A stretch of DNA of 64,000 nucleotides from Flavobacteriales bacterium (GTDB lineage: Bacteria > Bacteroidota > Bacteroidia > UBA10329). The position numbers were made by a program, and so were the translations under genes. Each line of letters starts with the position of its first letter. Positions within the stretch are counted from its first letter, which is position 1. Location of the stretch: positions 1-64,000 of the forward strand of contig WGMW01000056.1 of NCBI GenBank assembly GCA_016124845.1, given 5' to 3'. Shown here piece by piece: positions 1 to 21,700 of this stretch. Under the pieces are notes generated by a model. It was not told the origin of the DNA and did no database searches. It saw only the letters and a list, made by a program, of their open reading frames with translations.

Positions 1-102
1 ACAAAACAAAACGAAATATTTGTTTCGTATGCAGAGTCGCCAGCATCTGCAATAGGGAAAGAAAAAGCGTGGGAAATAATCAAAAAGCCTATTAAGCTAT
101 GA
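1..102 (+). CDS. C-terminal end of an unidentified protein (partial)
   Basis: Frame 1 is open from the first base to a TGA at 100-102 and would encode the last 33 residues of a protein, ending in KEKAWEIIKKPIKL. The composition is protein-like (charged helix-type end), and the frame is convergent with the next gene, which leaves a sensible 18-base gap. The stretch is short enough to be open by chance. I do not recognise the family. Confidence 0.35.
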   Translation, partial: TKQNEIFVSYAESPASAIGKEKAWEIIKKPIKL

Positions 103-120
103 AATATCGGAATCAATCCT

Positions 121-1842
121 TTATAGGGAGACGTACGTTACAGAAAGCTTTTGCGTAGCCAATACCTCCACCCCATTAAGCAACGTACAGAAATACACAC
201 CCGCACCCAGCCCGCGTGCATCTAAGGTATAAGTACCCTCATTACTTGGCAGTTGCACGGTTTTTACCAAGCGGCCAAGCATATCTCTCAGTTGCATGGT
301 GGGGCGGCTGCCCTGCGGAGCGCGGTAGGTAAGTTTGGTCTGTGTGGTAAGGGGGTTGGGGTAAATGCTCAGGTGTGCCTGCTCCTTTTCTACCTCACCC
401 ACACCTGTTAATGTATCGCACGGCAGGCAGGTTTTTATGACCAAAAGGTCATAATTGCCCTGTGCATCATAGGTTTGACCGCCAAATTCAATTGTACTAT
501 CTAAGTATGCAAGTAGTCCCACATGACCATCTCCAAAACTCTCAACCTGAAGTATCCCGTTTTGTCCAACCCCTTCCAATTGTAAACCACATTTCGGTTT
601 GCCATCTGAATCAAATGATAAAAGAAACCCATCATTTTCCCCATCTGGTGTATTGGTAAAAGAGCTTCCTTCATAATCAAAAACATCTGAATAAAACTCT
701 CCCGCGAACCACACAGAATTACCGGAAGAGGTCATGCATTTAGTTGCATCAAAAGAATTACCGCTCCCCTTTTTCAGCCAAGTGATATTGCCATCAGACC
801 TCTCAAGGTGTCCAACAAAAACGTCATTTTCCGTTGGAACTGGAAGTTGTTCGCCAGCAATACTGAATGCTGAATTCCAATAGAACCCTGAAAAATAAAC
901 ATCATCATTACCTGACAAACTCAGACCATATGCTCTTGGGTCAATTGCAGGAGAGCTTTGAGAATGATTCAACCAGTCCAATCCGTAATCTGAATTAATT
1001 GACATCTGATAGAGTTCGAAATGGTTCTCCGCAGGGGTAGATACGGTGGTTCCATCAAAGGTCAGCTCACGGTCAAACCTCCCTTGTAGGATGCATCCTA
1101 TAGAATCACAGTCGAAAGAATTGACCTCCACATTGCCCTCTCCTCCGATGTTCACCGCATTGAGAAGGTTTCCGTCCTCATCAAGTCTCCCAAATACCAT
1201 GTCCTGTTGCCATGCTATATCATCTGAATAGAATACTTCACCTCCTACCGAAACACTGTCAGAGTAGGGAATCACAAATGCGAGATCAGAACCTGTCCAT
1301 GCCAATCGATAACATCTGGAACTCTTCCAATCTCCCTTTTGACTCCATTGCAACACACCTTGAGAATTGAACTTCAGAATAAAATAGCCAGGTTGCGGAA
1401 GGCTTTCAGGAGGTCGTTCAATCAATATTCCGTCCACCGTAATTGAATTCTGCATAATACCACCAACATAAATGTTACCATTTGCATCCACAGCTAAATC
1501 AAGAGATCCACATTCTCTTTCTCCAAGTATCGTTTTCAACCATAAAAGGTCGCCTTCTGAATTGTACTTGGCAATGAAAAAATCAGAGTTCGGATTGAAC
1601 GAATTGGTTTCTGGAAACACTTGCCCATCCGTTATTATGGTATCTGCCCCAACTACTACATTGCTGACTATTACATTCCCTTGAAAGTCAATCACCAAAC
1701 TAGGGCTACTGTTTGAGAGGTTACCAATAGGCAAACCAGAAATCTGCTTGACCCATTGAGAAATACATTGTGCTGAAGTTGTCAATGGTGAACTAAGCCC
1801 TACAATTAGGCAAACTACCAATAATCTCACTACAGAAATCAT
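121..1842 (-). CDS. Secreted beta-propeller protein with T9SS type A sorting domain
   Basis: A 573-residue exported protein. Residues 1-24 form a signal peptide ending before QC. Residues about 45-470 hold repeated blades of the SBBP/NHL kind, with motifs such as GNIYVGG, FILKFNSQGVLQW and YFSGFYWNS. From about residue 490 a T9SS C-terminal sorting domain begins with SIYPNPLTT and continues with the usual MLGRLVKTV and GVYFCTLLNG strands. Established for this class: the CTD directs passage through the outer-membrane SprA channel and is removed as the protein is released or anchored. The start ATG overlaps the stop of the upstream gene by ATGA (1839-1842), so the two are probably translated together. 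The substrate or ligand is unknown. Confidence 0.85.
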   Translation of the reverse strand: MISVVRLLVVCLIVGLSSPLTTSAQCISQWVKQISGLPIGNLSNSSPSLVIDFQGNVIVSNVVVGADTIITDGQVFPETNSFNPNSDFFIAKYNSEGDLLWLKTILGERECGSLDLAVDANGNIYVGGIMQNSITVDGILIERPPESLPQPGYFILKFNSQGVLQWSQKGDWKSSRCYRLAWTGSDLAFVIPYSDSVSVGGEVFYSDDIAWQQDMVFGRLDEDGNLLNAVNIGGEGNVEVNSFDCDSIGCILQGRFDRELTFDGTTVSTPAENHFELYQMSINSDYGLDWLNHSQSSPAIDPRAYGLSLSGNDDVYFSGFYWNSAFSIAGEQLPVPTENDVFVGHLERSDGNITWLKKGSGNSFDATKCMTSSGNSVWFAGEFYSDVFDYEGSSFTNTPDGENDGFLLSFDSDGKPKCGLQLEGVGQNGILQVESFGDGHVGLLAYLDSTIEFGGQTYDAQGNYDLLVIKTCLPCDTLTGVGEVEKEQAHLSIYPNPLTTQTKLTYRAPQGSRPTMQLRDMLGRLVKTVQLPSNEGTYTLDARGLGAGVYFCTLLNGVEVLATQKLSVTYVSL

Positions 1843-3941
1843 TTGGAAGAAACCATTTTTCTGCTGGCAATCACATTGCCTTCGCTAAGAAGGTAGTAAG
1901 TGAAAATGCCCTTGCCGATGTCTGAAGAATATACACGTACTGTTTCTGAAGTGCCACTTATGGGGGTGTTCAGCATGACCACACCTTTCATATCTACTAT
2001 AAGAAGAGATACGTTCTTTGCTGATTCCGGTACAGACACCCGAATATCCGTGTAATCTGAAAATGGATTTGGGTCATTCTGCAATAGGACAAACTCACTT
2101 CCCTCCGATTTTTGTGCATTCTGAGTCTCTGTTGGGGGTTCTGCCATGCGGTAGGCGGGCTGAGCACAGCAGGTCTCCAGCATCAACTGCAACTCATCCA
2201 GCCTGTTGGTAAGTGCTGTAATTGCAGAATCCTGTTGCTTGGCAAGCATAAACAAGTAAACAGGAAGGCGGCCGTACTTTACACTATACGGCTCAAGTAG
2301 TGTTGAATCCACAATTGCTCTTCCCAACGAATCTCTAACAATCGTTCCGTCCGGTAATATCTCATGTTTAGGTTTGATTGTCGCTAAGGGCGGAAAATCA
2401 TCTGCAACCTCCTCCGCTATAAAGCCAACGTCTATGCTACCTCCATATACTTCCTTCCAATTGTATTTGACAGGTCTCATGGATAGAAACATCTGCTTGT
2501 CAAATTCCAAATCTTCAATGTTCTCTTTAAAATACATTGAAGAGGCATCCCAATCCGTCAGTTGATTACCAGTTCCAATTCCTACCCGATTTCCCGAACC
2601 ATTTGGAGGCAACGTATTAATAAAGGTAGTTCCGGCCACCTCCAACTTCCCGCTTGGGCTTGTGGTACCGATGCCGAGGTTGCCGTTGGCATCCATACGC
2701 ATAACACGCTCACTGTCATTCTGCCATTCGAACAGGGGGCGGTCTTCAACTGGAACAATATCCAACCCATCATCCCAACGAACCGTAAAGGTCATCATTG
2801 GTTCCGTTCCAGTATCATCATCAGATTCGGCCGTTAAACGAAGTGCCTGTTTGCTATGGTTGGCAGCGTTCCCAAACACCTCGGGAATAAACTCCATGCC
2901 TGTACTGGCATTACGTATCTGTAGCCAGTCTCCTGCTGCATCTCCAACAGTGTATTGCGTAAGCACCTCTGCGCCCGATACTTCATCTTTGATATGAAAT
3001 TTGGCATTGGGGTTAGCAATACCTCCAATACTTACCCTTGACGTGGAACCATCTACCCGCATCACCTCCGTATCGGTACCCCCATCGTTGATGTTGAAGA
3101 TGATGTCCCGGTCGGAGACCGCATTGCGGACCTTGATATCCTCATTGGCATCGAAGAGCAACGATGCATTGACCGTGCCTTCCGTTTGTGCCCCATTGTG
3201 CCACACTATACCTCCCTCATCTGCATCTGCCTTCTCAATGACCATGTAGGTATCATCCCCGCTCTCATCCTTCAAATGCAGCAGCCCATCGGGGTCGGTG
3301 GTGCCGATGCCTACGCGGCCCCAAGTGCCTCCCACGTTTTCCGTTCCGTAAGAATCTTCAATAAACATTGTCGGAACGTCCGAATTGATTCCAAACATCA
3401 TTGAATTATCGATATCGTTTGTAAATACAGGAGATCGAAGACTGGTTCCGAAAATAAAGTTATTGGTATTGGAAGACCCAGTTGCCACCCCAAAACCAAC
3501 GCCAATGGTATAGTCACCTTCAACATAAGATGATTCTCCAACTGCCACCGAGGATACGCCCTCAGCAACTCCTCCCGATAGAGCACAAGCACTTTCTCCA
3601 TCGGCCCTTGAGCTACCACAGGCTGCAAATGAATGGTCACCCCCGGCATCACCCCCTGCCATAGCAGCAGCTGCTGCTCCAGATGCATCAGATCCTGCGG
3701 CTGCAAATGAACCTGTACCACTTGCCGAAGACCCTCCAAAAGCTGCTGCATTGTCAGCATCAACATCGGAACCGTCCCCCTGCGAAAAGGAACAGTTTCC
3801 GGAGGTGATAGTTGGTGAAGTAGTGCAACCGCTTGTCTCAACAGTACTGCTCTGCCCCACCACATCCAAATTCATCAATGTCATTCCAGCGGCCATCATC
3901 ATGGTCAATAAAGTTCGGTAATAAAAAAGTAGTGTTTTCAT
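1839..3941 (-). CDS. YadA-head/tail-fibre-like surface protein with S74-like domain and T9SS sorting domain
   Basis: I place the start at 3941 (700 residues), because MKTLLFYYRTLLTMMMAAGM begins a good signal peptide; an in-frame ATG at 4028 would put 29 extra residues before it. Residues about 40-155 are Ala/Gly/Ser-rich repeats like the YadA/Hia head (SSVAVGESSY). Tail-fibre repeats follow (GRVGIGTTDPDGLLHLKDES, then GNLGIGTTSPSGKLEVAG). Near residues 490-560 there is a segment like the S74 intramolecular chaperone (FKENIEDLEF, MRPVKYNWKE, DVGFIAEEVAD). A short coiled coil (QQDSAITALTNRLDELQLML) comes next, then a T9SS CTD starting NDPNPFSDYTDI. By inference it is a trimeric surface fibre. 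It is coupled to the downstream gene by an ATGA overlap. Confidence 0.8.
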   Translation of the reverse strand: MKTLLFYYRTLLTMMMAAGMTLMNLDVVGQSSTVETSGCTTSPTITSGNCSFSQGDGSDVDADNAAAFGGSSASGTGSFAAAGSDASGAAAAAMAGGDAGGDHSFAACGSSRADGESACALSGGVAEGVSSVAVGESSYVEGDYTIGVGFGVATGSSNTNNFIFGTSLRSPVFTNDIDNSMMFGINSDVPTMFIEDSYGTENVGGTWGRVGIGTTDPDGLLHLKDESGDDTYMVIEKADADEGGIVWHNGAQTEGTVNASLLFDANEDIKVRNAVSDRDIIFNINDGGTDTEVMRVDGSTSRVSIGGIANPNAKFHIKDEVSGAEVLTQYTVGDAAGDWLQIRNASTGMEFIPEVFGNAANHSKQALRLTAESDDDTGTEPMMTFTVRWDDGLDIVPVEDRPLFEWQNDSERVMRMDANGNLGIGTTSPSGKLEVAGTTFINTLPPNGSGNRVGIGTGNQLTDWDASSMYFKENIEDLEFDKQMFLSMRPVKYNWKEVYGGSIDVGFIAEEVADDFPPLATIKPKHEILPDGTIVRDSLGRAIVDSTLLEPYSVKYGRLPVYLFMLAKQQDSAITALTNRLDELQLMLETCCAQPAYRMAEPPTETQNAQKSEGSEFVLLQNDPNPFSDYTDIRVSVPESAKNVSLLIVDMKGVVMLNTPISGTSETVRVYSSDIGKGIFTYYLLSEGNVIASRKMVSSK

Positions 3942-4214
3942 GGGTAATAGGTTTTGGTTTAACAGATAGATGCCGAAACCGATGCAAGGGTTACAACACC
4001 TCACCGAATTTACCCCCCCCGTTACCATTTATGCAAGTGCTATTTATTAACAATTTGTCAATTACATGTATTGAAAACATGTTCATTTCATTTTATCCAT
4101 GTTGCATCATGGTGATATTCTCACTAAAGTTTTCAACTTGCATTTAAAGTATCGTACAAACGATCTATTTCGCATTGTAACTCTATTCATTTTCACATTT
4201 AAAACCTATTTATC

Positions 4215-4712
4215 ATGCCAATGGAAAGCACACCTCCGGCATTGGACGATGCAGCTGCAACCGCCCTTGCCACCGACATGCAGACCGTGATCGATGCGCT
4301 GGCGGCCTACAACGTCAACCTGACAAAGGACGAACGCCAATCGGCCACTTCGGTAGGCCCTCAGCGACTGGCCTTTATTCTGGACTATTTTAACAACAAG
4401 GACAACTACCCCACCCTGAAGCCGCCCTTTATGAACGAGGCCGAGGCCAATGGCCATTGGGACGTGGCCGGAAACCTGCACAACCTGCTGGTAAGGGCCC
4501 GCCAGATAGTGGAACTGGTGGACGATCTGAAGCTCAATTCTGAGCATTTCGCCTATCAGTATGCATTGGAAGGCTATGCCACCGTTAAACGTGGCAAGGA
4601 GAAGAACGTTCCGGGAGCCGATACCTTCTTCGACCTGCTGAGTCCCAACTTTGAAGGACAGGGCAGCACCGCGACCGATGGTGGCGACACGGCTGCACCC
4701 GCAGATTCCTGA
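4215..4712 (+). CDS. Small acidic helical protein of unknown function
   Basis: A 165-residue protein with no signal peptide or membrane segment. It is predicted mostly helical (residues about 10-130) and ends in a low-complexity tail rich in G, T, D and A (from about residue 150). Motifs seen are LTKDERQSATSVGPQRLAFI and NGHWDVAGNLHNLLVRARQI. ATG at 4215 or 4221 could start it. Codon use fits the neighbours, and a strong terminator follows 18 bases after the stop, which supports a real single-gene transcript. I do not recognise the family; it is probably cytoplasmic. Confidence 0.7.
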   Translation: MPMESTPPALDDAAATALATDMQTVIDALAAYNVNLTKDERQSATSVGPQRLAFILDYFNNKDNYPTLKPPFMNEAEANGHWDVAGNLHNLLVRARQIVELVDDLKLNSEHFAYQYALEGYATVKRGKEKNVPGADTFFDLLSPNFEGQGSTATDGGDTAAPADS

Positions 4713-4730
4713 AAGCATCCGACCATGAGA

Positions 4731-4758
4731 AAAAGCGGCCCTCTGTGGCCGCTTTTTT
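4731..4758 (+). terminator. Intrinsic terminator after the 165-residue protein gene
   Basis: A perfect 10-bp stem AAAAGCGGCC / GGCCGCTTTT with a CTCTGT loop and a run of T directly after. It separates the acidic protein gene from the 21-bp array. Confidence 0.9.
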
Positions 4759-4792
4759 AGTTCAAAACCATAAGAATAGTTTCGCTTTGGAC

Positions 4793-4981
4793 ACAACAAC
4801 TTCTACCAAATGCACAACCATTGCCACCAACATTACAACCATTGGTAACAGAAGAGAAACTCTCTTTGAACCAATTTGAACAATTGGGAAATAATGGAAA
4901 ACCATTGCTACCTAATGGACAACCATTTTGAACATAGGTACAACCATTGCGATGTAAAGCACAGCTTACCTTGAACTACTT
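4793..4981. repeat. Degenerate tandem array with exact 21-bp period, core ACAACCATTG
   Basis: Nine consecutive 21-bp units start at 4793, 4814, 4835, 4856, 4877, 4898, 4919, 4940 and 4961. The core is exact in units 4814, 4835 and 4940, and differs at one base in 4898 (AAAACCATTG) and 4919 (ACAACCATTT). The other units are diverged but keep the register. Column 3 (A) and column 5 (C) are invariant in all nine, and columns 4, 8 and 9 are strongly conserved. The second half of each unit is variable, with a weak A at columns 13 and 18. The array begins 34 bases after the terminator and ends 4 bases before the ATG of the 81-residue protein. No frame is open throughout, so it is not a coding repeat. 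A period of 21 bp is two helical turns, which would place every core on the same DNA face. Confidence 0.85.
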
Positions 4982-4985
4982 TGAA

Positions 4986-5231
4986 ATGAGAAAGCTAACA
5001 CCCGAAGAATACAGCGGCATGAACCTGCGGGGCAGGGGAAGACAATCGGCCTTTGCGCGTGCAGTAATGCAGTTGGAGGTGGATGAGGTACTGTTCCTTC
5101 CCAAAGAGGAATGGAAAAAGCGGTACCATCCGAGCAAAACGCTCTATACCATCCGTAAACGCTACAATCGAACGTTTGAACTGCTTACAGAGGTGAACGG
5201 TAAAGGATGGACGGTGAAACGGCTGAAGTGA
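4986..5231 (+). CDS. Small basic protein (81 aa) downstream of the 21-bp array; possible DNA-binding protein
   Basis: The ATG at 4986 lies directly after the 21-bp array; a TTG at 4947 would start inside the array and is less likely. The product has 81 residues and is strongly basic (about 20 Lys/Arg). It contains LRGRGRQSAFARAV, a strand-like segment DEVLFLPKEEW, then KTLYTIRKRYNRTFELLTE and a C-terminal GKGWTVKRL. The pattern (G-R-x-S, a helix, 'L..dE.l.....eW', then a basic hairpin ending GW.V.R) looks like a compact alpha/beta nucleic-acid-binding fold, but that is inference. There is no signal peptide. It is convergent with the M20 gene, 11 bases away. I know no named family for it. Confidence 0.7.
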   Translation: MRKLTPEEYSGMNLRGRGRQSAFARAVMQLEVDEVLFLPKEEWKKRYHPSKTLYTIRKRYNRTFELLTEVNGKGWTVKRLK

Positions 5232-5242
5232 GAGGGAAAGGT

Positions 5243-6430
5243 TTATGAACGGAGCTGACTTACAGCAATATAGGCCATCAGCCCCGTGCCTATCTCCAAG
5301 CTTTTCTCATCTACATTGAAGGTAGGTGTGTGCAGGCCGGAGGTGAGCCCTTTTTCGGTATTGCCCACACCCAAACGGTAAAAGCAACCGGGCATGTGGT
5401 GGGTGTAGAAACTGAAGTCTTCGCCCGTCATGCGCATATCAAGTTCCACCACATTCTCCTCGCCCATGTATTCCTTGGCGGAATTACGCGCCAGTTCGGT
5501 CAGTGCCTCATCGTTATACACATACGGGTAGCCCACATCCACACGGAAGTCGCAACTGCCACCCATGGATGCGGCCATCTCCTCGGCCAGTTTCTTCATA
5601 ATTCCGTGAGCTTCCATACGCCATTCCTCATCCATGGTGCGGAACGTACCCTGCACCTCCACCTCGTTGGGAATGACATTGGTGGCCCCGTTGGCATGCA
5701 CGCTTCCGAACGAGAGCACGCACGGAACACCGGGCTTTGTCCTTCGGCTTACCACTTGCTGCAATGCCACGATGATGTGCGAGGTGATGAGCACCGGGTC
5801 GATAAGCGTATGCGGCAACGCGGCATGACCTCCTTTTCCTTTTACGGTGAAGTAGACCTCATCGGCCGAGGCCATGTACATCCCGGCACGGAAACCGACC
5901 TTGCCCACTTCCAAACTGGGCAACACATGCTGCCCCACTATGGCACTCGGTTTCGGATTTTCGAGCGCGCCTTCCTTTATCATAAGCGAGGCGCCACCGG
6001 GCAGGCGTTCCTCTCCGGGTTGGAAGATGATCTTGACGGTTCCTTCAAACTCGCTTCGCAAGGTGTGAAGCGCCTTGGCCGCACCCAGCACGCAGGCGGT
6101 GTGCACATCATGCCCGCAGGCGTGCATCACGCCTTCGTTCTGCGAACGGTAGGGAACATCGTTTGCTTCCAGTATCGGCAGCGCATCCATATCTCCCCGC
6201 AGGGCAATGACCTTGGAGGAAGGGTTCTTCCCTTCGATGAGTGCAACGATGCCTGTTTCCACAAAACCGCTTTTGTATGGGATGCCCCACTCATCGAGTT
6301 TTTCGCAGACGAATTTGCTTGTCTCGAACTCCTTGAAAGAAAGCTCAGGATGTGCATGCAGATGCCTGCGGATGTCGAGCACCTGCTGGGCATTCTCCGT
6401 CACCAACTGTTTTATGCGGTCTTTCATCAT
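5243..6430 (-). CDS. M20 family amidohydrolase (HipO-like)
   Basis: A 395-residue cytoplasmic metallo-amidohydrolase of the peptidase M20D type, the family of N-acyl-amino-acid (hippurate-like) hydrolases. The metal and active-site motifs are present: ALRGDMDALPI (about 75), MHACGHDVHTA (about 100-110), FQPGEERLPGG (about 134, with the catalytic Glu pair) and MTGEDFSFY near 350. The dimerisation insert sits in the middle (GKGGHAALPHTLIDPV). The length is normal for the family. The gene begins MMKDRIKQL and its ATG overlaps the stop of the upstream permease gene (6427-6430), so the two are coupled. The exact substrate cannot be read from the sequence. Confidence 0.92.
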   Translation of the reverse strand: MMKDRIKQLVTENAQQVLDIRRHLHAHPELSFKEFETSKFVCEKLDEWGIPYKSGFVETGIVALIEGKNPSSKVIALRGDMDALPILEANDVPYRSQNEGVMHACGHDVHTACVLGAAKALHTLRSEFEGTVKIIFQPGEERLPGGASLMIKEGALENPKPSAIVGQHVLPSLEVGKVGFRAGMYMASADEVYFTVKGKGGHAALPHTLIDPVLITSHIIVALQQVVSRRTKPGVPCVLSFGSVHANGATNVIPNEVEVQGTFRTMDEEWRMEAHGIMKKLAEEMAASMGGSCDFRVDVGYPYVYNDEALTELARNSAKEYMGEENVVELDMRMTGEDFSFYTHHMPGCFYRLGVGNTEKGLTSGLHTPTFNVDEKSLEIGTGLMAYIAVSQLRS

Positions 6431-6819
6431 TTGCTGAAAAGAAGTTTTGCGGCTGCCAGCATCATCACGCCTCCGAACACCTTTTTGACGATGCTCTGAT
6501 CGAGCGAGAGCGAGACCTTACTACCGAAATATGCACCTATTACAAATGCGGCCGCAATGAGAAGGGCTGCCGAAATGTTGGCATTGCCGCTCTTATAATA
6601 GTTGTAGAATCCGAGCAGACCGATGGGTGGAAGCATGAGCGCCAAGCTGGTGCCCTGCGCCATGTGTTGCGAGTAGCCGAGAAAGAACACCAACGCAGGA
6701 ACGATGATGATGCCACCACCAACGCCCACGAATCCACTTGCAAAACCTGCTGCCACGCCTATCAGCAACAGCACCAATACCATTGTAAAACTCATTTTCG
6801 GTCTGTTCAGTTCACTCAT
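6427..6819 (-). CDS. Half-length TauE/SafE-family permease
   Basis: A 130-residue inner-membrane protein with about four hydrophobic segments and the family signature GFVGVGGGIIIVPALVF near residue 30. TauE/SafE (former DUF81) proteins usually have about 250 residues made of two such halves. This is a single half, so it probably acts as a dimer. Members export sulfite, sulfoacetate or other organic anions; the substrate here is unknown. Translation is coupled to the M20 amidohydrolase by a 4-base overlap, which suggests a shared job such as release of a hydrolysis product (inference). Confidence 0.85.
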   Translation of the reverse strand: MSELNRPKMSFTMVLVLLLIGVAAGFASGFVGVGGGIIIVPALVFFLGYSQHMAQGTSLALMLPPIGLLGFYNYYKSGNANISAALLIAAAFVIGAYFGSKVSLSLDQSIVKKVFGGVMMLAAAKLLFSK

Positions 6820-6853
6820 TGTTTAATTACCGTCCCGTTCTGATAAACATAAT

Positions 6854-6946
6854 AAATCCCCCGGCCTTCGGCCACCCCCTTTTCAAGGGGGAATGAGCGT
6901 GGTTCCTCCTTGAAAAGGGGGTGCCGAGGAACGAGGCGGGGGATTT
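6854..6946. repeat. REPIN-like inverted pair of C/G-run palindromes
   Basis: A 93-bp element in the gap between the permease gene and the TolB-like gene. Two arms of about 40 bp face each other. Both begin AAATCCCCCG and reach CCCCCTTTTCAAGG when read inward, and each arm has its own small palindrome. The arms are closely similar but not identical (GGCCTTCGGCCA against GCCTCGTTCCTCGGCA), as in REPINs made of two diverged REP units. Related sequence occurs in coding DNA at 11211-11250 and around the DUF559 insertion at 19932-20407. Confidence 0.8.
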
Positions 6947-7004
6947 CAAAACCATCGAACTCTGAATTATGCGTTATCCACCAGATCAGACACATCACCT
7001 CCTT

Positions 7005-10000
7005 TTAGAAGTCCATGCTGAGAGAGACATACCAGAATCCTTTGTTGATCTTGCGGTTCTCCACGCCCCACGCGTAATCTACCCGGATAAAGTAACCGAG
7101 GAATTTTGTCCGTGCTCCCAACCCGAAACCACCCACCACAGGTTCTCTTCTGTTCTGTACCGTAATGATGACCGATCCTTGATTGACCACTTCCTTGTTC
7201 AAGGAGTTGTCGTCCGAGAAAGGCTGTAGGCCTGTCCATGCCGTACCGACATCTCCAAATCCCACCACTTGGAAGTTGTAGATGAAATTGGACTTGATGG
7301 GACGGTTGATGAGGTAGCGGAAAATAGGCCAGCGCAGTTCGCTGTTGATCACCGCAAAGCTGTTTCCGTTTCGGATGTTCTGCGGGAAACCGCGCATGTT
7401 GGTAGCCAATGCCTGAAATGCGTAGTTCTGGCTGTAATCCACAGGGATGTTGTGGTTGTAGGTAGGTGATATCCACCGATCGACCCCACCGAGGAAATAG
7501 GCTATTTTCTGCTGCCCGAACGAGGTGCTTGCCGCAAATCGGTTGGCCCAGATCAGTTCGCGATGGATCTTAATGTAGTTGCGGGCATCCACGCCAAGCA
7601 CGAACATGTTCTTGGCCTGCTTATTAATATCCTGGAAGTACTGCGCAAAGATCTTCAACCGTGTGCCACGATAAAGGTTGAGACCCATGGGAAGTGTATT
7701 GTCGAACACGTACGACACTTGAAGTCCCGCCCGCCAGGTCATATCGTCCGGTTTCACAAGGTTGCGATCGTTGGTGCTCTTGTACACGGTGCGGTCATTC
7801 CTGCCAAGCACATTCCCGCGGAACGCGGAGAATTCGGTGATGGGCCAGCTCATCTTCCACGTGAGCGTGTAGGTGTAAACCTGTGCCACAGTAGAGTTGC
7901 TGATGAAATTCTCGATGGACTGCCGATGGAACACGAGCTGTTTGTCCAGCCTGCGCTTGAAATTCTGCACCGAGGCGAACATCTCGTTCGTATTGAGGTT
8001 GCCCGTCAGACGGAAACCACCCACCACCTTGTAGTCGTCCATGATGTCGGTGATGCCCGTTTTGAAGAAACCGTTGAGGCCAGGATTGTTGAATGAATTT
8101 CCGCCCGAGAACTTCTGGTAATTGCTGTTCACAAAAGCGTTATCGAGCTGCGTGACCACATACTCGCTCTTGAAGGCCACATCGTAATTACGTTGCGGTG
8201 GCAGTTGCATCTCAATGGGCACATCCTGCACCGCTTCCAACGCCCGATGCAAACTATCGATACGCGCCAGCACCTGCTCGCGCTTGCGGTCTCGCCTTGA
8301 TTTTGGCTCGTCTGAAAGCAGCGTTGGCTGACCGTTCTGTGGTTGTTGCTGATCCTGTGTCTGTTGCTGCTGTTGCCCGTCCACATGGATGTCGAACTGA
8401 TAATCATGGATGTCGATCTCGCCCGGTTTGCGTGGTTTTTCGGCAGGTTTCGGTGTGGTCTGCACGGTGGGTTGCTTCGGCTGAACGTCCAAAATGGAGG
8501 TGCGTTTACGCTTCTTCTTCGGTGCCTCCGATGCCTTGTTCTTAAAACCGGAATACCCGACCTCGGTGATGACCGCGTTCTTCTCCGGCTCGCGGTCTTT
8601 CAGCGTCAGGCGGTAATTGCCTTTGGCGAAGATCACTTCTGCGATCTTCCCGTTCACCGTATCCACATCATACTCCAAAATGTTGCGCGGATACTGCGTC
8701 ACGGGGCTCACCCGTGTGAAATACGAATAGTGAATACTGGTGTCGATGTACGCGATATTGCTATCGAGAATGGCGCGGTAGCGGTTGTAGATTCCCTTCT
8801 CATCGCTCAGATACGAAAAGCTGTTGCCATCATACTCCATCGGAGCGCGCTCGTTGGCGAACTGCGTGTCGGTAACCCTTCGCAGAACGGGTTCATCCGA
8901 ATCCCTGTCGTAAATGAAAATATCATTGTAAAGATTCTTGGGCAGCACCTTGATGTCGAATGGCATCAGGGTATCGTTGTTCCTATCGGAACTGAAAATA
9001 ACCTTGCGTGAATGGTCCATGAACCGCGCGTCCACATCCGTGAAAATGTCATCAGTAACCTTCTGGTATGTGTTGGAAATGATGTTGTAGATGTACACAT
9101 CCGAGCGGCCCATCTGCACGGCTGTGAACACGAACTCGCGGCCATCATCCGAATAATCCACCGACAGGATCTTCTCAAAGTAGAAGAGTTCGCGCCATGT
9201 GCGCTTTTTGGTGGTGAGGTCGTACTGGAAGAGTTTGATCTTTCCCTTGTGTTCCGTTATCATGGAAACCAATTTCCCGCTCGGATGCCAAGCCACAATG
9301 GGATAACTGTGGTCCTGCGTGTTGTAAGAACGGTAGCCTTGCCGCAGAATGGTCTTTTTCTTCTTGGTCTTCAGGTCTTGCAGCTTCACTTTTATCTTGC
9401 CCATGTCGTTCCACACGTAGGCAAGTCTGCGGCCATCAGGGCTCAATTTCGGATGCTCGATGGCACAATATGGCTGCGCACGTTTCCGAACGCGGTTCAG
9501 CGGTTTCTCCTCCGGAAGACTGAGTTTGTCCTCCTGCTTGTAATACATGTTATCGTAATAATGAAGCCATTCGGCCGCCAAATTCTTGAGCGAAACTCCC
9601 AGCACGAACAGGAAGCCATTGTCGGCATTGCGGCTCACGCGGGTCATGTAGAGAATGTTGCTGATAACCGACTCGCCATAATTCTCCACCACATATTTCC
9701 AGATGGAGTGGCCACCGTAGCGCGCGTCTTTTCCCGTCAGTTGACTGAATTTCTCCCAACGACCGCTCATCACCGCATCCTTCACCTCGTTGTTCACTTC
9801 CGAGTCCCAATCGCTGGAGAGGTATGAGATCAGCCCTTCCACGTACCATTCGGGCAGATTGAGCAGCGTGTTGTTGCGGATCACATCCTTGAAACTGCCG
9901 CCATACATCATCTGATCGAGCATGACACGCGCCAACCCTGCACGCAACTGCTTCTCGTAGTTTTTGTAATCGCCATCGAAGTACAGAATGAGCTTGGTAC

Positions 10001-10403
10001 CCACGATGGTCGTTACACCGCCCGTGTTGGTCTGCTGGTCGGTGACCAGCCCGATGTTGCTCTGCTTCTGCTCCGAAAGTTTGTTGTAAATGATGATCTG
10101 GAAACGCTTGTCCATCGTAAAATCGAAGGTCTTTTCCAGATCGTGCAGCACGCGGTCGCTGGCACGCATGGTGTATTCGGCCAGCTCATTTCCACCCAGA
10201 TAGAAGTACACATCGAAGCGGTCGAAGCGGTAGAGGAACCAATCGATCTTCTCATACTGCACGCGGTTCTTTCCGAAGTCGGTCTGAAGCCCGTTATAGA
10301 ACTGCGCCTTCAGCGAAGCAGGCACCAAAAACAAGAAGATCGCCCAAACGGTCAACGACCTGGCGAAATTCGGGTTGAAGGATGGCGTAAAACGTTGCTT
10401 CAT
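7005..10403 (-). CDS. Large TolB-like propeller / outer-membrane barrel protein
   Basis: The start is taken at 10403 (MKQRFTPSFNPNFARSL), which gives 1132 residues with a signal peptide ending at LKAQ; an in-frame ATG at 10532 would run over the divergent MBL gene. After the signal comes a gluzincin-like N-terminal region (YGGHSIWKYVVENYGE and AAEWLHYYDNMYYKQ) without a clear HExxH. PD40/TolB blades follow (HPKLSPDGRRLAYVWNDMGK, WHPSGKLVSMI). A low-complexity P/K/Q linker (about 660-760) leads to a C-terminal region with alternating outer-membrane strands that ends in aromatic F (YVSLSMDF), like surface-antigen/BamA barrels. Such proteins are widespread in Bacteroidetes and often annotated TolB. 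The role is unknown, probably in envelope assembly or as a structural receptor. Confidence 0.8.
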   Translation of the reverse strand: MKQRFTPSFNPNFARSLTVWAIFLFLVPASLKAQFYNGLQTDFGKNRVQYEKIDWFLYRFDRFDVYFYLGGNELAEYTMRASDRVLHDLEKTFDFTMDKRFQIIIYNKLSEQKQSNIGLVTDQQTNTGGVTTIVGTKLILYFDGDYKNYEKQLRAGLARVMLDQMMYGGSFKDVIRNNTLLNLPEWYVEGLISYLSSDWDSEVNNEVKDAVMSGRWEKFSQLTGKDARYGGHSIWKYVVENYGESVISNILYMTRVSRNADNGFLFVLGVSLKNLAAEWLHYYDNMYYKQEDKLSLPEEKPLNRVRKRAQPYCAIEHPKLSPDGRRLAYVWNDMGKIKVKLQDLKTKKKKTILRQGYRSYNTQDHSYPIVAWHPSGKLVSMITEHKGKIKLFQYDLTTKKRTWRELFYFEKILSVDYSDDGREFVFTAVQMGRSDVYIYNIISNTYQKVTDDIFTDVDARFMDHSRKVIFSSDRNNDTLMPFDIKVLPKNLYNDIFIYDRDSDEPVLRRVTDTQFANERAPMEYDGNSFSYLSDEKGIYNRYRAILDSNIAYIDTSIHYSYFTRVSPVTQYPRNILEYDVDTVNGKIAEVIFAKGNYRLTLKDREPEKNAVITEVGYSGFKNKASEAPKKKRKRTSILDVQPKQPTVQTTPKPAEKPRKPGEIDIHDYQFDIHVDGQQQQQTQDQQQPQNGQPTLLSDEPKSRRDRKREQVLARIDSLHRALEAVQDVPIEMQLPPQRNYDVAFKSEYVVTQLDNAFVNSNYQKFSGGNSFNNPGLNGFFKTGITDIMDDYKVVGGFRLTGNLNTNEMFASVQNFKRRLDKQLVFHRQSIENFISNSTVAQVYTYTLTWKMSWPITEFSAFRGNVLGRNDRTVYKSTNDRNLVKPDDMTWRAGLQVSYVFDNTLPMGLNLYRGTRLKIFAQYFQDINKQAKNMFVLGVDARNYIKIHRELIWANRFAASTSFGQQKIAYFLGGVDRWISPTYNHNIPVDYSQNYAFQALATNMRGFPQNIRNGNSFAVINSELRWPIFRYLINRPIKSNFIYNFQVVGFGDVGTAWTGLQPFSDDNSLNKEVVNQGSVIITVQNRREPVVGGFGLGARTKFLGYFIRVDYAWGVENRKINKGFWYVSLSMDF

Positions 10404-10416
10404 TTTCGAAGGGACG

Positions 10417-10424
10417 TAAAGATA
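10417..10424 (-). promoter_or_regulatory. -7 element of the TolB-like gene promoter
   Basis: On the minus strand TATCTTTA matches the Bacteroidetes sigma-A -7 consensus TAnnTTTG in all but the last base. It lies 14 bases before the chosen ATG, which also supports that start. The -33 TTG is not clear. Confidence 0.4.
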
Positions 10425-10479
10425 CAGTTTAAACTCCCCGCTGAACTTGATGTTAAAAACCGCAGCATAGCTGAAATAG

Positions 10480-10487
10480 TATTTTTG
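10480..10487 (+). promoter_or_regulatory. -7 element of the MBL gene promoter
   Basis: TATTTTTG is an exact match to TAnnTTTG, 20 bases before the ATG of the MBL hydrolase, in the gap between divergent genes. No good -33 TTG is seen at the usual 19-21 bases. Confidence 0.45.
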
Positions 10488-10506
10488 AGCTCCGTAAAAC
10501 AACCAC

Positions 10507-11142
10507 ATGAATCTTAAGAAGTTCGTTTTCAACCCGTTTCAAGAAAACACCTATCTCGTTTGGGATGATGAGAAGAACTGCGCCATCATCGACCCCGGTT
10601 GTGCTGATGAATATGAACGGAACGAGCTGGTCGATTTCATCGAAAAAGAAGGGTTGAAACCTGTGAAACTGCTGAACACTCATTGCCATGTGGATCACGT
10701 GCTGGGCAACAAATTCTTGGCAGAGAAATACGGATTGGAGCTGGAAATGCACCAAGGCGATGTTCCTGTGCTGAATGCTGTTCCGAGCTATGGCGCATCC
10801 TATGGTTTCAACACGGGCGAAATGGTGAAACCTTCTGTGTTTTTGGAGCATGGCGATGTGGTGAAGATCGGTTCGTTGGAACTTCATGTGATCCACACAC
10901 CAGGTCATTCTCCAGGCGGAATCTGTTTCTACAACATTCCATCCAAGCAGATCATTGTGGGCGATGCGCTCTTCTACGGAAGCATTGGCAGAACGGATCT
11001 TCCTGGTGGAAATCACGCTCAATTGATAACCGCCATTAAACGCGAATTGCTAACACTTCCCGAAGAAACCACAGTTCATTCTGGCCACGGACCTTCTACA
11101 AGCATCGGATTTGAGAAGGCGAACAACCCATTCCTGAGATGA
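10507..11142 (+). CDS. MBL-fold metallo-hydrolase (glyoxalase II-like)
   Basis: A 211-residue cytoplasmic metallo-beta-lactamase-fold hydrolase. The zinc motif THCHVDH is at about 58-64, followed by the distal ligands in HTPGHSPGG (about 130), GDALFYGSIGRTDLPGG (about 158) and a C-terminal HSGHGPSTSIG (about 197). This pattern fits the YcbL/hydroxyacylglutathione-hydrolase-like subgroup, which acts on thioesters; it lacks the C-terminal helical domain of true GloB. The last bases overlap the next gene by ATGA at 11139-11142, so the EEP-family gene is translationally coupled. Confidence 0.9.
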   Translation: MNLKKFVFNPFQENTYLVWDDEKNCAIIDPGCADEYERNELVDFIEKEGLKPVKLLNTHCHVDHVLGNKFLAEKYGLELEMHQGDVPVLNAVPSYGASYGFNTGEMVKPSVFLEHGDVVKIGSLELHVIHTPGHSPGGICFYNIPSKQIIVGDALFYGSIGRTDLPGGNHAQLITAIKRELLTLPEETTVHSGHGPSTSIGFEKANNPFLR

Positions 11143-12062
11143 GAATCTGTTTTATTCTTTTGCTGTGTACGATCTCCATCTCAATGAAGGCGCAAACAAC
11201 AGCAGAAACAAGCTCCCCTTCCCTTCGAGGAGGGGTTGGGGGTGGGGCTTCCATTCGTGTTCTCACGTGGAACATTTTCATGCGGCCGCATGCCATCCTG
11301 TACGATGGACAATTCAGACGTGCGAAAGCTATCGGTGAACTGATGAAGGATGAGAATTACGACATCATCCTGTTTCAGGAAGCGTTCGGAAAAACGAGCA
11401 GAAAGAAACTGCGCAAAGCATTGCAAGGTGCTTATCCGTACGAGATCGAACCCAAGAACAATGGAAAACTGGTGAACAGCGGGCTTTGGGTTTTGAGCAA
11501 GCACGAGATCAAGGAACAAGACTTCATCTTTTACAATAATTGCAAAGTGAGCGACTGCCAATCGTCCAAAGGTGCGGTGCTGATTGAAGTGGAGATCAAC
11601 GGACAGCGTTACCAGATTCTCAGCACGCATGTGCAAGCCGAGGATGGCAAGGAGTTTGCTCAAGTGCGGCAACTCCAGTTCAAAATGATAGACCAGTTTT
11701 TAAAGGATCACCAAAAACCCGAAGTGCCACAGTTCATCTTGGGCGACCTCAACACGCCTTTCGATTCTATTGCAGAATACAAAAGCATGCTTGAAATCCT
11801 GAATGCAAGCGATGGAAAAGTTTCCTTGGTAGGAGCGGATGAACTGAGCATTGACCGACCGATAACCTGGGGGTGCGCCAACAACGACATGATCAAAAAG
11901 AAATGGCGCGGAAACGTGCAGCTTTTGGATTACGCATTGCAGCGCGAAACAGGCTATCCCTTCAAACTGAGACGTGAGTTGAAGACCTACACGAAACAAT
12001 GGTCGAAAAAACGGAAACATCTGTCCGATCATTACGCCATTTCGCTGACCATACTTCCTTAA
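11139..12062 (+). CDS. Secreted endonuclease/exonuclease/phosphatase-family hydrolase
   Basis: A 307-residue exported protein with a signal peptide (residues 1-18, MRICFILLLCTISISMKAQ). The DNase I/sphingomyelinase fold shows its metal and catalytic motifs: VLTWNIF (Asn), IILFQEAF (Glu), STHVQAE (His), FILGDLNTPFDS (Asp/Asn) and the terminal SDHYAIS (Asp-His). The closest general type is neutral sphingomyelinase/phospholipase C-like enzymes, but the substrate cannot be decided. Residues about 25-38 (SSPSLRGGVGGGAS) between the signal peptide and the fold are encoded by a dispersed C/G-rich palindrome, which adds a Gly/Ser linker without breaking the frame. Confidence 0.85.
   Translation: MRICFILLLCTISISMKAQTTAETSSPSLRGGVGGGASIRVLTWNIFMRPHAILYDGQFRRAKAIGELMKDENYDIILFQEAFGKTSRKKLRKALQGAYPYEIEPKNNGKLVNSGLWVLSKHEIKEQDFIFYNNCKVSDCQSSKGAVLIEVEINGQRYQILSTHVQAEDGKEFAQVRQLQFKMIDQFLKDHQKPEVPQFILGDLNTPFDSIAEYKSMLEILNASDGKVSLVGADELSIDRPITWGCANNDMIKKKWRGNVQLLDYALQRETGYPFKLRRELKTYTKQWSKKRKHLSDHYAISLTILP
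11211..11250. repeat. C/G-rich palindromic repeat inside a coding region
   Basis: A 40-bp repeat, AGCTCCCC at one end and GGGGCTT at the other, with an inner TTCGAGG turn. It belongs to the same general family as 20376-20407 and 6854-6946. It is inserted in frame in the EEP-family gene just after the signal peptide. Confidence 0.7.
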
Positions 12063-18725: not shown

Positions 18726-21700
18726 TCTAAGACAAAAATCCCACCACTACAGTTATCAGGTCTTGAACCACTCCTCATCTACGAAGGTTCCAACTTCATC
18801 AATGTGGGCGAACGGACCAACGTCACAGGGTCGCGCATGTTTCTGCGCCTCATTAAGGAAGAAAAGTATGATGAGGCATTGGCCGTTGCGCGGGACCAAG
18901 TAGAAGGTGGAGCACAAGTGCTGGATGTGAACATGGATGAAGGAATGATCGATGGCAAAGAGGCCATGGTCAAATTCCTTCACCTCTTGGCTGCCGAACC
19001 CGACATTGCTCGCATTCCGATCATGATCGATAGCTCCAAATGGCAGATCATCGAAGCTGGTCTGCAATGCGTGCAGGGAAAATCCGTGGTCAATTCCATC
19101 AGCCTAAAAGAAGGCGAGGAACAGTTCGTTGATCACGCGAAAAAGGTTAAGCGCTATGGCGCAGCCGTCATTGTGATGGCATTTGATGAACAAGGACAGG
19201 CCGATAGCTACGAACGCAGGATCGAGATCTGCAAACGTTCGTACGACATCCTCGTGAACAAGGTCGGTTTCGCTCGTCAAGACATCATCTTCGACCCGAA
19301 TATCTTCCCTGTGGCAACAGGAATGGAAGAGCACAACAATAACGCGCTCGACTTCTTCAACGCCACCAAATGGATAAAAGAGAACTTGCCAGGAGCCAAG
19401 GTGAGCGGTGGGGTGAGCAACGTCTCGTTCTCATTCCGAGGGAACAACCCTGTGCGTGAAGCGATGCATTCCGCGTTCCTCTATCATGGTATCAAAAACG
19501 GCATGGACATGGGAATCGTCAACCCTACCATGCTGGAGGTGTATGATGAGATTCCGAAAGATCTTTTGGAGCATGTGGAAGATGTACTCCTGAACCGCAG
19601 GCCAGATGCAACCGAACGCCTGCTTTCATTTGCCGAAACAGTTGTAGGAAAAGCCAAGGAGAAAAAGGAAGACCTCACTTGGCGACAAGCGCCCGTGGAA
19701 GAACGCCTTTCACACGCCTTGGTCAAAGGTATTGCCGACTTTGTGGAGGAAGATGTGGAGGAAGCCCGTCTGAAAGCAGAACGGCCGCTACACGTCATTG
19801 AAGGTCCGCTGATGGACGGCATGAACGTGGTCGGAGATCTTTTCGGAGCAGGAAAGATGTTCCTGCCGCAGGTGGTAAAATCCGCGAGGGTGATGAAGAA
19901 AGCTGTCGCCTACCTACTTCCTTACATGGATGCCCCCCCGACCCCCCAAAGGGGGGACAGCCCCCTCAATCCCCCGATGGGGGAAGAAAGTGGCTCGGAG
20001 AAACCGGGTTATATGACCGCAGATCCTGTTTACTATGAGAAAATCAAGGATTACGTTAAGAAGCATCGCAGCCAGCCAACGCAAGCTGAAGATGCTTTAT
20101 GGCAAGCACTTCGAAACAAGCAACTAGACGGCTACAAATTCAGGCGGCAACATATCATCGGAAAGTATATCGCTGATTTCGTCTGTCTCCAACAACATTT
20201 GATCATTGAAGTCGATGGACTTATTCACCAACTTCCTGATATTAAAGAAGCCGATGAAAGCCGTGAAGCATGGCTAAAAGAAATGGGATTTCGCATCATT
20301 CGTTTTTCCAACTCTCAGGTACTTGTCGAAAGAGATGCCGTAATTGAGGAAATCCGAAAACATTTGATCGAAGCACCAGCTCCCCCTTTGGGGGGAAGGG
20401 GGGCTGGTAAGATCTTATTGGCAACGGTAAAAGGTGATGTGCACGACATCGGTAAGAATATCGTTGGCGTAGTACTCGCTTGCAACAATTATGAGGTCAT
20501 CGATCTTGGCGTGATGGTTCCTGCGGAGAAGATCCTTGCGGAAGCGAAAAAGCAGCAAGTGGATGTCATCGGATTGAGTGGACTTATCACACCTTCATTG
20601 GATGAGATGGTGCATCTCGCCAAAGAAATGGAGCATGATGGGTTCGATATTCCGTTGCTGATCGGAGGTGCCACCACTTCGCGCGTTCACACGGCCGTGA
20701 AGATTGACCCGCAGTACAAGAAAGGGCAGACGGTACACGTATTGGACGCTTCACGTTCGGTAACGGTTGTGGAAAGCCTACTTGGTCAGAAGAAACAGGG
20801 TTTTGTGGAGAACATTCAAGCAGAGTATGACCAACTGCGTGAGATGCACGCTAAGAAACGAGGACAGAAGGAGTTCATTTCGTTGGAAGAAGCACGTGCC
20901 AATAAGTTCGAAATCGACTGGAAGCCCGAAGACCTTGCCAGACCGAAGAAACTCGGCATCACCGAATTCAAGGAATTCCCGCTGAACGAATTGGTGGATT
21001 ACATCGACTGGACACCCTTCTTCCAAACGTGGGAACTGGCTGGCCGTTATCCGAAGATATTGGAGGATGAAGTGGTCGGAACCGAAGCAACAAAACTTTT
21101 TGCTGATGCTCAATCGATGCTTCAGAAAATCGTTTCGGAGAAGTGGATCACAGCAAGTGGTGTGGTCGGTCTTTGGCCTGCAAATGCGGTTGGAGATGAT
21201 TTGGAGTTGTACACGGATGAAAGTCGATCTGAAGTACTTTCAACCGTTCATTCATTGCGTCAGCAGTCCAAAAAAGCAGCAGGTGTTGCAAATCTCGCTT
21301 TAGCTGATTTTATAGCGCCAAAAGAAACTGGCCTTCAAGATTACATGGGAGGATTTACAGTTACCGCTGGTCTGGGAATTGAGAAGAAGTTGGAGGAATT
21401 CGCTGCCGACCATGATGACTATAGCAGCATCATGCTAAAAGCCTTGGCCGACCGATTGGCCGAAGCATTTGCTGAAAAACTACACGAAATTGTACGGAAA
21501 GACGTTTGGGGTTACGAGCCTGAAGAATCGCTTTCAAATGAAGAATTGATCCGCGAGAAGTACCGAGGAATTCGCCCAGCGCCAGGCTACCCGGCCTGTC
21601 CCGACCATACCGAAAAACCTGAACTGTTCCGTTTACTCAATGCCACAGAGATCACAGGCGTAAGCCTCACCGAGAGTTTGGCCATGATGCCAGCAGCATC

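Follow-up and report, generated by a model that had tools for sequence, protein, structure and literature searches.

Phased 21-bp arrays beside two undescribed protein families in a Flavobacteriales bacterium and related genomes

Plasmid iterons are direct repeats of 17–22 bp, spaced about two helical turns apart, that lie beside rep genes, as in R6K, pSC101, F, and P1. The parC, tubC, and stb centromeres (ParR, TubR, StbA) are likewise phased direct repeats, built from units of 10–12 bp, and autoregulation is typical of them. Repeats of another kind precede the toxin gene in type III toxin–antitoxin systems (ToxIN, CptIN, TenpIN), where structured RNA repeats of about 36 nt are followed by a terminator, and the REP/BIME elements of enterobacteria carry one palindromic sequence common to all copies. 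TIGR-Tas systems combine 36-nt units and 9-nt spacers with a Nop-domain effector, and their consensus differs between loci (PMC12045711). The TAACTGA heptamer repeats of Beggiatoaceae, Cyanobacteria, and some Bacteroidetes consist of one fixed 7-mer (PMC4679880). Here, we analyze an array in a 64-kb stretch of DNA (the window) from a Flavobacteriales bacterium. No description of such arrays was found in open-license papers, and no known family fits the modules in which they occur. The array lies between two genes, in a locus with four features:

4215 to 4712, + strand: Orf165, a 165-residue all-helical protein of an undescribed family, identified as an open reading frame (ORF) and as a recurrent neighbor upstream of 21- or 22-bp arrays
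4730 to 4757, no strand assigned: bidirectional terminator-like hairpin between Orf165 and the array, with perfect 11-bp arms, an A-run, and a T-run
4793 to 4981, + strand: 21-bp array of nine units composed of a core, ACAACCATTG, and a variable half, defined by unit alignment, lag identity, and a periodicity scan
4986 to 5231, + strand: Orf81, an 81-residue basic protein of an undescribed family (pI 10.3, net charge +10), identified as an ORF

An earlier sequence-only reading of the locus had proposed nine units of 21 bp ending 4 bases before the start codon of the 81-residue protein, which was confirmed: the units start at 4793, 4814, 4835, 4856, 4877, 4898, 4919, 4940, and 4961, the ninth, which is weak, ends at 4981, and the Orf81 ATG is at 4986. 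Mean pairwise identity of the units is 0.50, and the core is exact in three units and has at most one mismatch in five. The two columns described as invariant across nine diverged units are indeed so in 9/9 (A in column 3 and C in column 5). Identity within the array is 0.51 at a lag of 21 vs. 0.26, 0.32, 0.32, and 0.19 at lags of 19, 20, 22, and 23, and the 200–220 bp upstream of Orf81 gave z scores of 6.4–6.7 at lag 21 and 4.7–6.1 at lag 42 when compared with dinucleotide shuffles. Scanning the 64-kb window for periods of 12–40 returned the array as the top hit (period 21 at 4793, 0.53, z 8.4), with a runner-up of period 39 at 3549 (score 0.437) inside a coding region, and detected no second comparable array. 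Tandem Repeats Finder alone detects only two of the units because the remaining ones are too diverged. The upstream terminator-like hairpin is also real, its arms at 4730–4740 and 4747–4757 (AAAAAGCGGCC/GGCCGCTTTTT) being 100% complementary, and it is bidirectional because the A-run and T-run are symmetric. It was absent from the output of a terminator scan, probably because the T-run forms part of the stem. The same hairpin arrangement is found at the start of the arrays of loci L039, L041, L047, L056, L061, L011, and L015. The gene after Orf81 is a convergent amidohydrolase, and inspection of the gene list revealed no cas gene in the neighborhood from 1 to 12000.

Like plasmid iterons, the arrays are direct repeats of 21–22 bp, positioned upstream of a gene for a small or mid-size candidate binding protein and private in sequence to each system; their period of 21 bp, or 22 bp in some genera, falls within the range of about 17–22 bp for tandem direct repeats in helical phase. 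Unlike iterons, they are located on chromosomal-scale contigs, dozens per genome and many without a partner gene, with no recognizable replication initiator, and neither Orf81 nor Orf165 matches a Rep family in Pfam or NCBIfam. With parC, tubC, and stb they have in common that direct repeats in phase precede the gene for a small basic protein; every Orf81 module encodes such a protein, putatively DNA-binding. However, their units are of 21 bp rather than 10–12 bp, there are many copies per chromosome, and the modules contain no gene for a ParM/TubZ-like or ParA NTPase. REP/BIME elements resemble the arrays in being intergenic and numerous in a genome, with some copies at the 3′ ends of genes, but arrays of the window's own genome share only the period and no common consensus. 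Unlike CRISPR, the window units are only about 50% identical, and spacers are not sharply bounded. TAACTGA repeats (PMC4679880) are also direct repeats of intergenic regions, frequently placed immediately ahead of start codons and with a spotty phylogeny, but the arrays described here are free in sequence and only their 21-bp period is fixed.

Searched by sequence, Orf81 has no relative in Pfam, NCBIfam, PHROG, or PDB. Its structure model (pLDDT 83) has the predicted order helix–helix–strand–helix–strand–strand, and residues W43, P49, G74, W75, and R79 are conserved. Compared with the PDB, the model gave only weak matches to KH domains (best E 0.28); it also showed a loose structural likeness to small uncharacterized phage proteins (best E 0.004). 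No tblastn match was found in phage or plasmid records, nor any match in viral contigs or relative in a plasmid collection, and a phage or plasmid origin by sequence was rejected on these grounds. Of 395 class genomes searched by profile, 32 contain Orf81, with homologs whose identity to the window protein is as low as 17–30%; a 395-genome sample of the phylum added no further genome. There are 7 copies in the window's own genome and 12 in one relative. The named relatives are metagenome-assembled (e.g., Flavobacteriales metagenome-assembled genomes), and many Orf81 copies lie close to contig ends. A long form of 170–200 aa with a conserved C-terminal domain (L040, L043–L045, L048, L049, L052–L054, L057, and L059) belongs to families f20 and f41, is mostly present once per genome without an array, and is possibly the ancestral host gene.

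Homologs of the small protein do have an array directly upstream: a 21-bp-period array was detected in 30 of 32 testable loci, testable meaning stand-alone Orf81 homologs with enough contig upstream. This holds at protein identities as low as about 20%, and the arrays are no more than about 170 bp away from the start codon. The two stand-alone loci without an array are L004 and L009, the latter with just 159 bp of upstream sequence. None of 11 long-form homologs, which have the extra C-terminal domain, is preceded by an array (short vs. long forms, Fisher p 1.4e-8). Short forms L050 (f20) and L058 (f41) have arrays with z scores of 12–13, whereas their long-form counterparts in these families lack them, so taxonomy alone is not the explanation, although the contrast is controlled for taxonomy only partly.

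To compare cores, the unit consensus was read in gene orientation for all pairs of Orf81 arrays. Consensus similarity correlates with Orf81 identity (Mantel r 0.50, 0/5000 permutations), and with the reverse-complement consensus the correlation is only 0.13. Cores are kept across families f1 and f4 at 54–73% protein identity (L047 with L002/L003, L055 with L019, and L039 with L011/L020). The window's own array is an exception: the nearest relative for which an array can be read is L008, whose core is unrelated at 59% protein identity (L001 vs. L008); the nearest Orf81 relative of the window, L007 (77%), is at a contig end with its array beyond reach. The idea that core and protein vary together therefore holds across the Orf81 arrays, in a fixed orientation, but fails between the window and L008. 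Simple joint inheritance of linked DNA could account for this covariation.

Orf165 homologs were detected in 25 of 198 class genomes. The AlphaFold model of Orf165 (pLDDT 88.7) is all helix, and the protein belongs to no Pfam or NCBIfam family and has no PDB match. A 21-bp array, or in some genera a 22-bp array, is located directly downstream of the gene, and it occurs without Orf81 at L075, L077–L081, L083, L085, and L087; no clear array is present at 3 of 20 Orf165 loci (L071, L084, and L086). The modules examined contain only Orf165, Orf81, and sometimes a helix-turn-helix (HTH) gene. The 22-bp arrays follow Orf165 homologs in the genera of L083, L085, and L185. At L071 (G089:C17), an Orf165 homolog without a clear 21-bp array is found, from 2366, directly upstream of a cas9-looking gene.

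The spacing of the units is held despite their divergence, as had been claimed for the window, with 353 of 371 adjacent units exactly 21 bp apart. Across 44 nonredundant arrays, the mean z score is 11, 9.8, and 9.1 at lags of 21, 42, and 63, and weak maxima appear at the half-turn lags of 10/11, 31/32, and 52/53. The conserved columns are clustered as a core (z 4.5) and have a half-turn component (z 3.1). The proposed helical-phase reading fits both the 21-bp period and this half-turn subsignal. There is no W/S signal at the helical harmonic in the arrays, and DNA curvature produced by phased A/T content was rejected for that reason. Arrays of the paralogs L017 and L018 are 29% diverged without an indel, and the adjoining gap is 24% diverged with three gap events. 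Both in this pair and in L005/L012, the array diverges faster than third codon positions, and constraint on Orf81 arrays seems to be stronger on spacing than on sequence. Among paralog or locus pairs, unit number is equal in L075/L078 and in L017/L018, and L005/L012 differ by gapped columns.

A census of the window's own genome was made on contigs picked by number, blind to Orf81 and Orf165, and covered 459 kb including the window, about a tenth of the genome. It returned 8 arrays, all with a period of 21 or 42, plus one repeat outside this class. With a slightly different scanning window and score, the same census gave 7 arrays at period 21 and 0 at any other period tested in the range 15–33, with one threshold throughout. 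A rough extrapolation from this tenth is about 70 arrays per genome. In a control limited to four class genomes without Orf81 or Orf165 (376–396 kb), zero arrays were detected. No Orf81 or Orf165 is visible beside the sampled arrays other than the window's, and the consensus similarity of such solo arrays to the Orf81 arrays of the same genome is about 0.2–0.44, near background. Solo arrays were rejected as targets of Orf81, their cores being unrelated, and the window core has no strong second site elsewhere in the genome. In correction of the earlier reading, the array is not specific to the adjacent small protein, since arrays also follow Orf165 in the absence of Orf81 and the other sampled arrays of the genome have an unrelated consensus. 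In another bacterial family, a long solo 21-bp array is located in a divergent intergenic region at L128 (G093:C4; 19135–19461), where Orf81 and Orf165 are both missing from the surrounding 500 bp.

We tentatively read these loci, at somewhat short of even confidence, as phased iteron- or centromere-like binding arrays carried on mobile modules and read by the cognate Orf81 in Orf81 modules. The window would then be one complete copy of a module family with the order Orf165, hairpin, array, and Orf81. The array would present protein-binding sites at intervals of two helical turns, all on the same side of the DNA, much like iterons or parC/tubC, and the cognate Orf81, basic and possibly KH-like, would recognize the conserved core in a fixed orientation. 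By coating the array, Orf81 may repress or tune its own promoter located between the array and the gene, and a private core for each module would prevent cross-talk among paralogs in one cell. Solo and Orf165-only arrays may be modules with other cargo, or remnants, of the same phased architecture. The architecture, the phase lock, the gene association, the joint inheritance of core and protein, and mobility or lineage-specific presence are direct observations, whereas array binding, autoregulation, and the identity of the solo-array binder are what we infer. TAnnTTTG is a Bacteroidota-type promoter consensus. Of 30 loci, 5 have it in the gap separating the array from Orf81 vs. 0.9 expected, which hints that the array sits upstream of a promoter and not in a leader, but the evidence is modest because two of the five loci are paralogs, and the presence of the motif in only a minority of gaps counts against the promoter step. 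Confidence in the binding-site reading is held down because the many arrays of the same genome without Orf81 and without a common core stay unexplained by it. In addition, arrays with a 22-bp period would not stay on one face of the helix in relaxed DNA, the sequence of some Orf81 arrays evolves more quickly than third codon positions do, and Orf81 has no recognizable DNA-binding fold beyond weak KH matches.

It is rather unlikely, though the strongest of the competing accounts, that the array is instead the structural end of a small gene-plus-array module, the solo arrays being left after cargo loss or insertion and the phase being set by a duplicating or recombining machinery and not by a regulator. 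The arrays are mobile or lineage-specific. The HTH, Orf165, array, and hairpin of L075 and L078 are 82% identical between unrelated flanks, and homology of L005 with L012 and of L017 with L018 is essentially confined to the array plus Orf81. At L141 (G000:C15; 15120–15661), an array and an ORF of 103 codons, whose product carries a VPE-type membrane segment at its C terminus, lie between genes resembling fixI and ccoS, and both are missing from the orthologous gap of G002, G007, and G006. In the relatives that were compared, the same amidohydrolase is accompanied by a different gene, and the window module is missing. A module end would also suit arrays that are free in sequence yet fixed in period genome-wide. 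However, no recombinase or transposase was seen to recur beside arrays at the loci examined in a nonsystematic look at neighbors, and no target duplication was found. Moreover, the L075/L078 array is conserved like coding sequence (identity 0.88 vs. 0.87 for the gene and 0.76 for third codon positions), which suggests function. Improbable as well, and more so, are functionless, decaying minisatellites placed by chance. Units only about 50% identical in the window and the lineage specificity of solo arrays would suit them, but a single period is allowed, with none of the other tested periods represented in the census, the phase is held through divergence, and the association with genes is strong.

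An array acting as RNA is unlikely, by a little more than a module end. Its transcript would be either the leader of Orf81 or a repeat RNA, and a KH-like Orf81 would bind the RNA units, as in type III toxin–antitoxin systems, where a small protein gene is likewise immediately preceded by tandem repeats. Consistent with this are the position directly before the start codon, the fixed orientation of the core relative to the gene, and the weak KH resemblance of Orf81. Orf165-only arrays, as we assigned them to that class, are often palindromic and hairpin-rich (folding mean z −2.6 vs. −0.3 in Orf81 arrays, p 0.003), and comparison with L075 reveals a near-perfect hairpin in unit 5 of L078. On the other hand, Orf81 arrays fold like their column-permuted copies and are unstructured as RNA, promoter-like motifs lie downstream of several arrays, and the array starts right after the bidirectional hairpin, with little room for a promoter. 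Unlike type III repeats, the units are of 21 bp, and Orf81 matches no ToxN, CptN, or TenpN family. A common RNA structure is not general, the palindromic subset being mainly Orf165-only arrays, and Rfam gave no convincing match, only weak subthreshold ones to unrelated small RNAs. A coding repeat was rejected: an open frame is present in 25 arrays vs. 25.7 expected from column-permuted arrays, and 22-bp arrays cannot code. By far the least probable reading is an RNA-guide array of the TIGR kind in which variable halves serve as short guides. Several arrays do show an alternating 42-bp structure resembling dual-repeat arrays, and, as in TIGR-Tas (PMC12045711), tandem units have conserved and variable parts, with repeats conserved within a locus and differing between loci. 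Yet the Nop domain (PF01798) is absent from the whole of the window's own genome, whereas the same search was positive in 6 of 14 control genomes, and the variable halves are not sharply bounded spacers. TIGR-Tas is thereby largely refuted in this genome, and the sequence-only idea that the variable halves carry information found no backing, with neither a Nop/Tas protein nor a strong match to the window array elsewhere in the genome.

Whether read as orthogonal nucleoprotein scaffolds, in line with binding of the arrays by Orf81, or as ends for cassette recombination, the arrays may, with a probability we place below even, constitute a new class of chromosomal element, with tens of arrays per genome that are free in sequence, have a period of two helical turns, and are served by a dedicated machinery including Orf81 and Orf165. 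A repeat class defined by helical period and not by sequence would escape all homology-based repeat and RNA searches, which may explain the lack of a name. If the core private to each array is read by a small protein, the modules would offer ready-made orthogonal pairs for multisite binding of DNA (or RNA); if the arrays are cassette ends, they would represent an unrecognized mobile system in the Bacteroidota.

Two further arrays of the genome have distinctive contexts. At L112 (G000:C54:12000-31999), a 42-bp array at 3970–4225 is located between two paralogous lipoprotein-like genes, and its units contain two hairpins, of the TGCGAGGTTTCGCA and CCAAA...TTTGG types, with changes that are apparently compensating. 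The 20.5-kb contig of L140 (G000:C14) carries one 21-bp array as inverted copies near both ends, at about 860–1000 and 19540–19690, with an HTH-like gene beside one copy, and this contig could be a small element.
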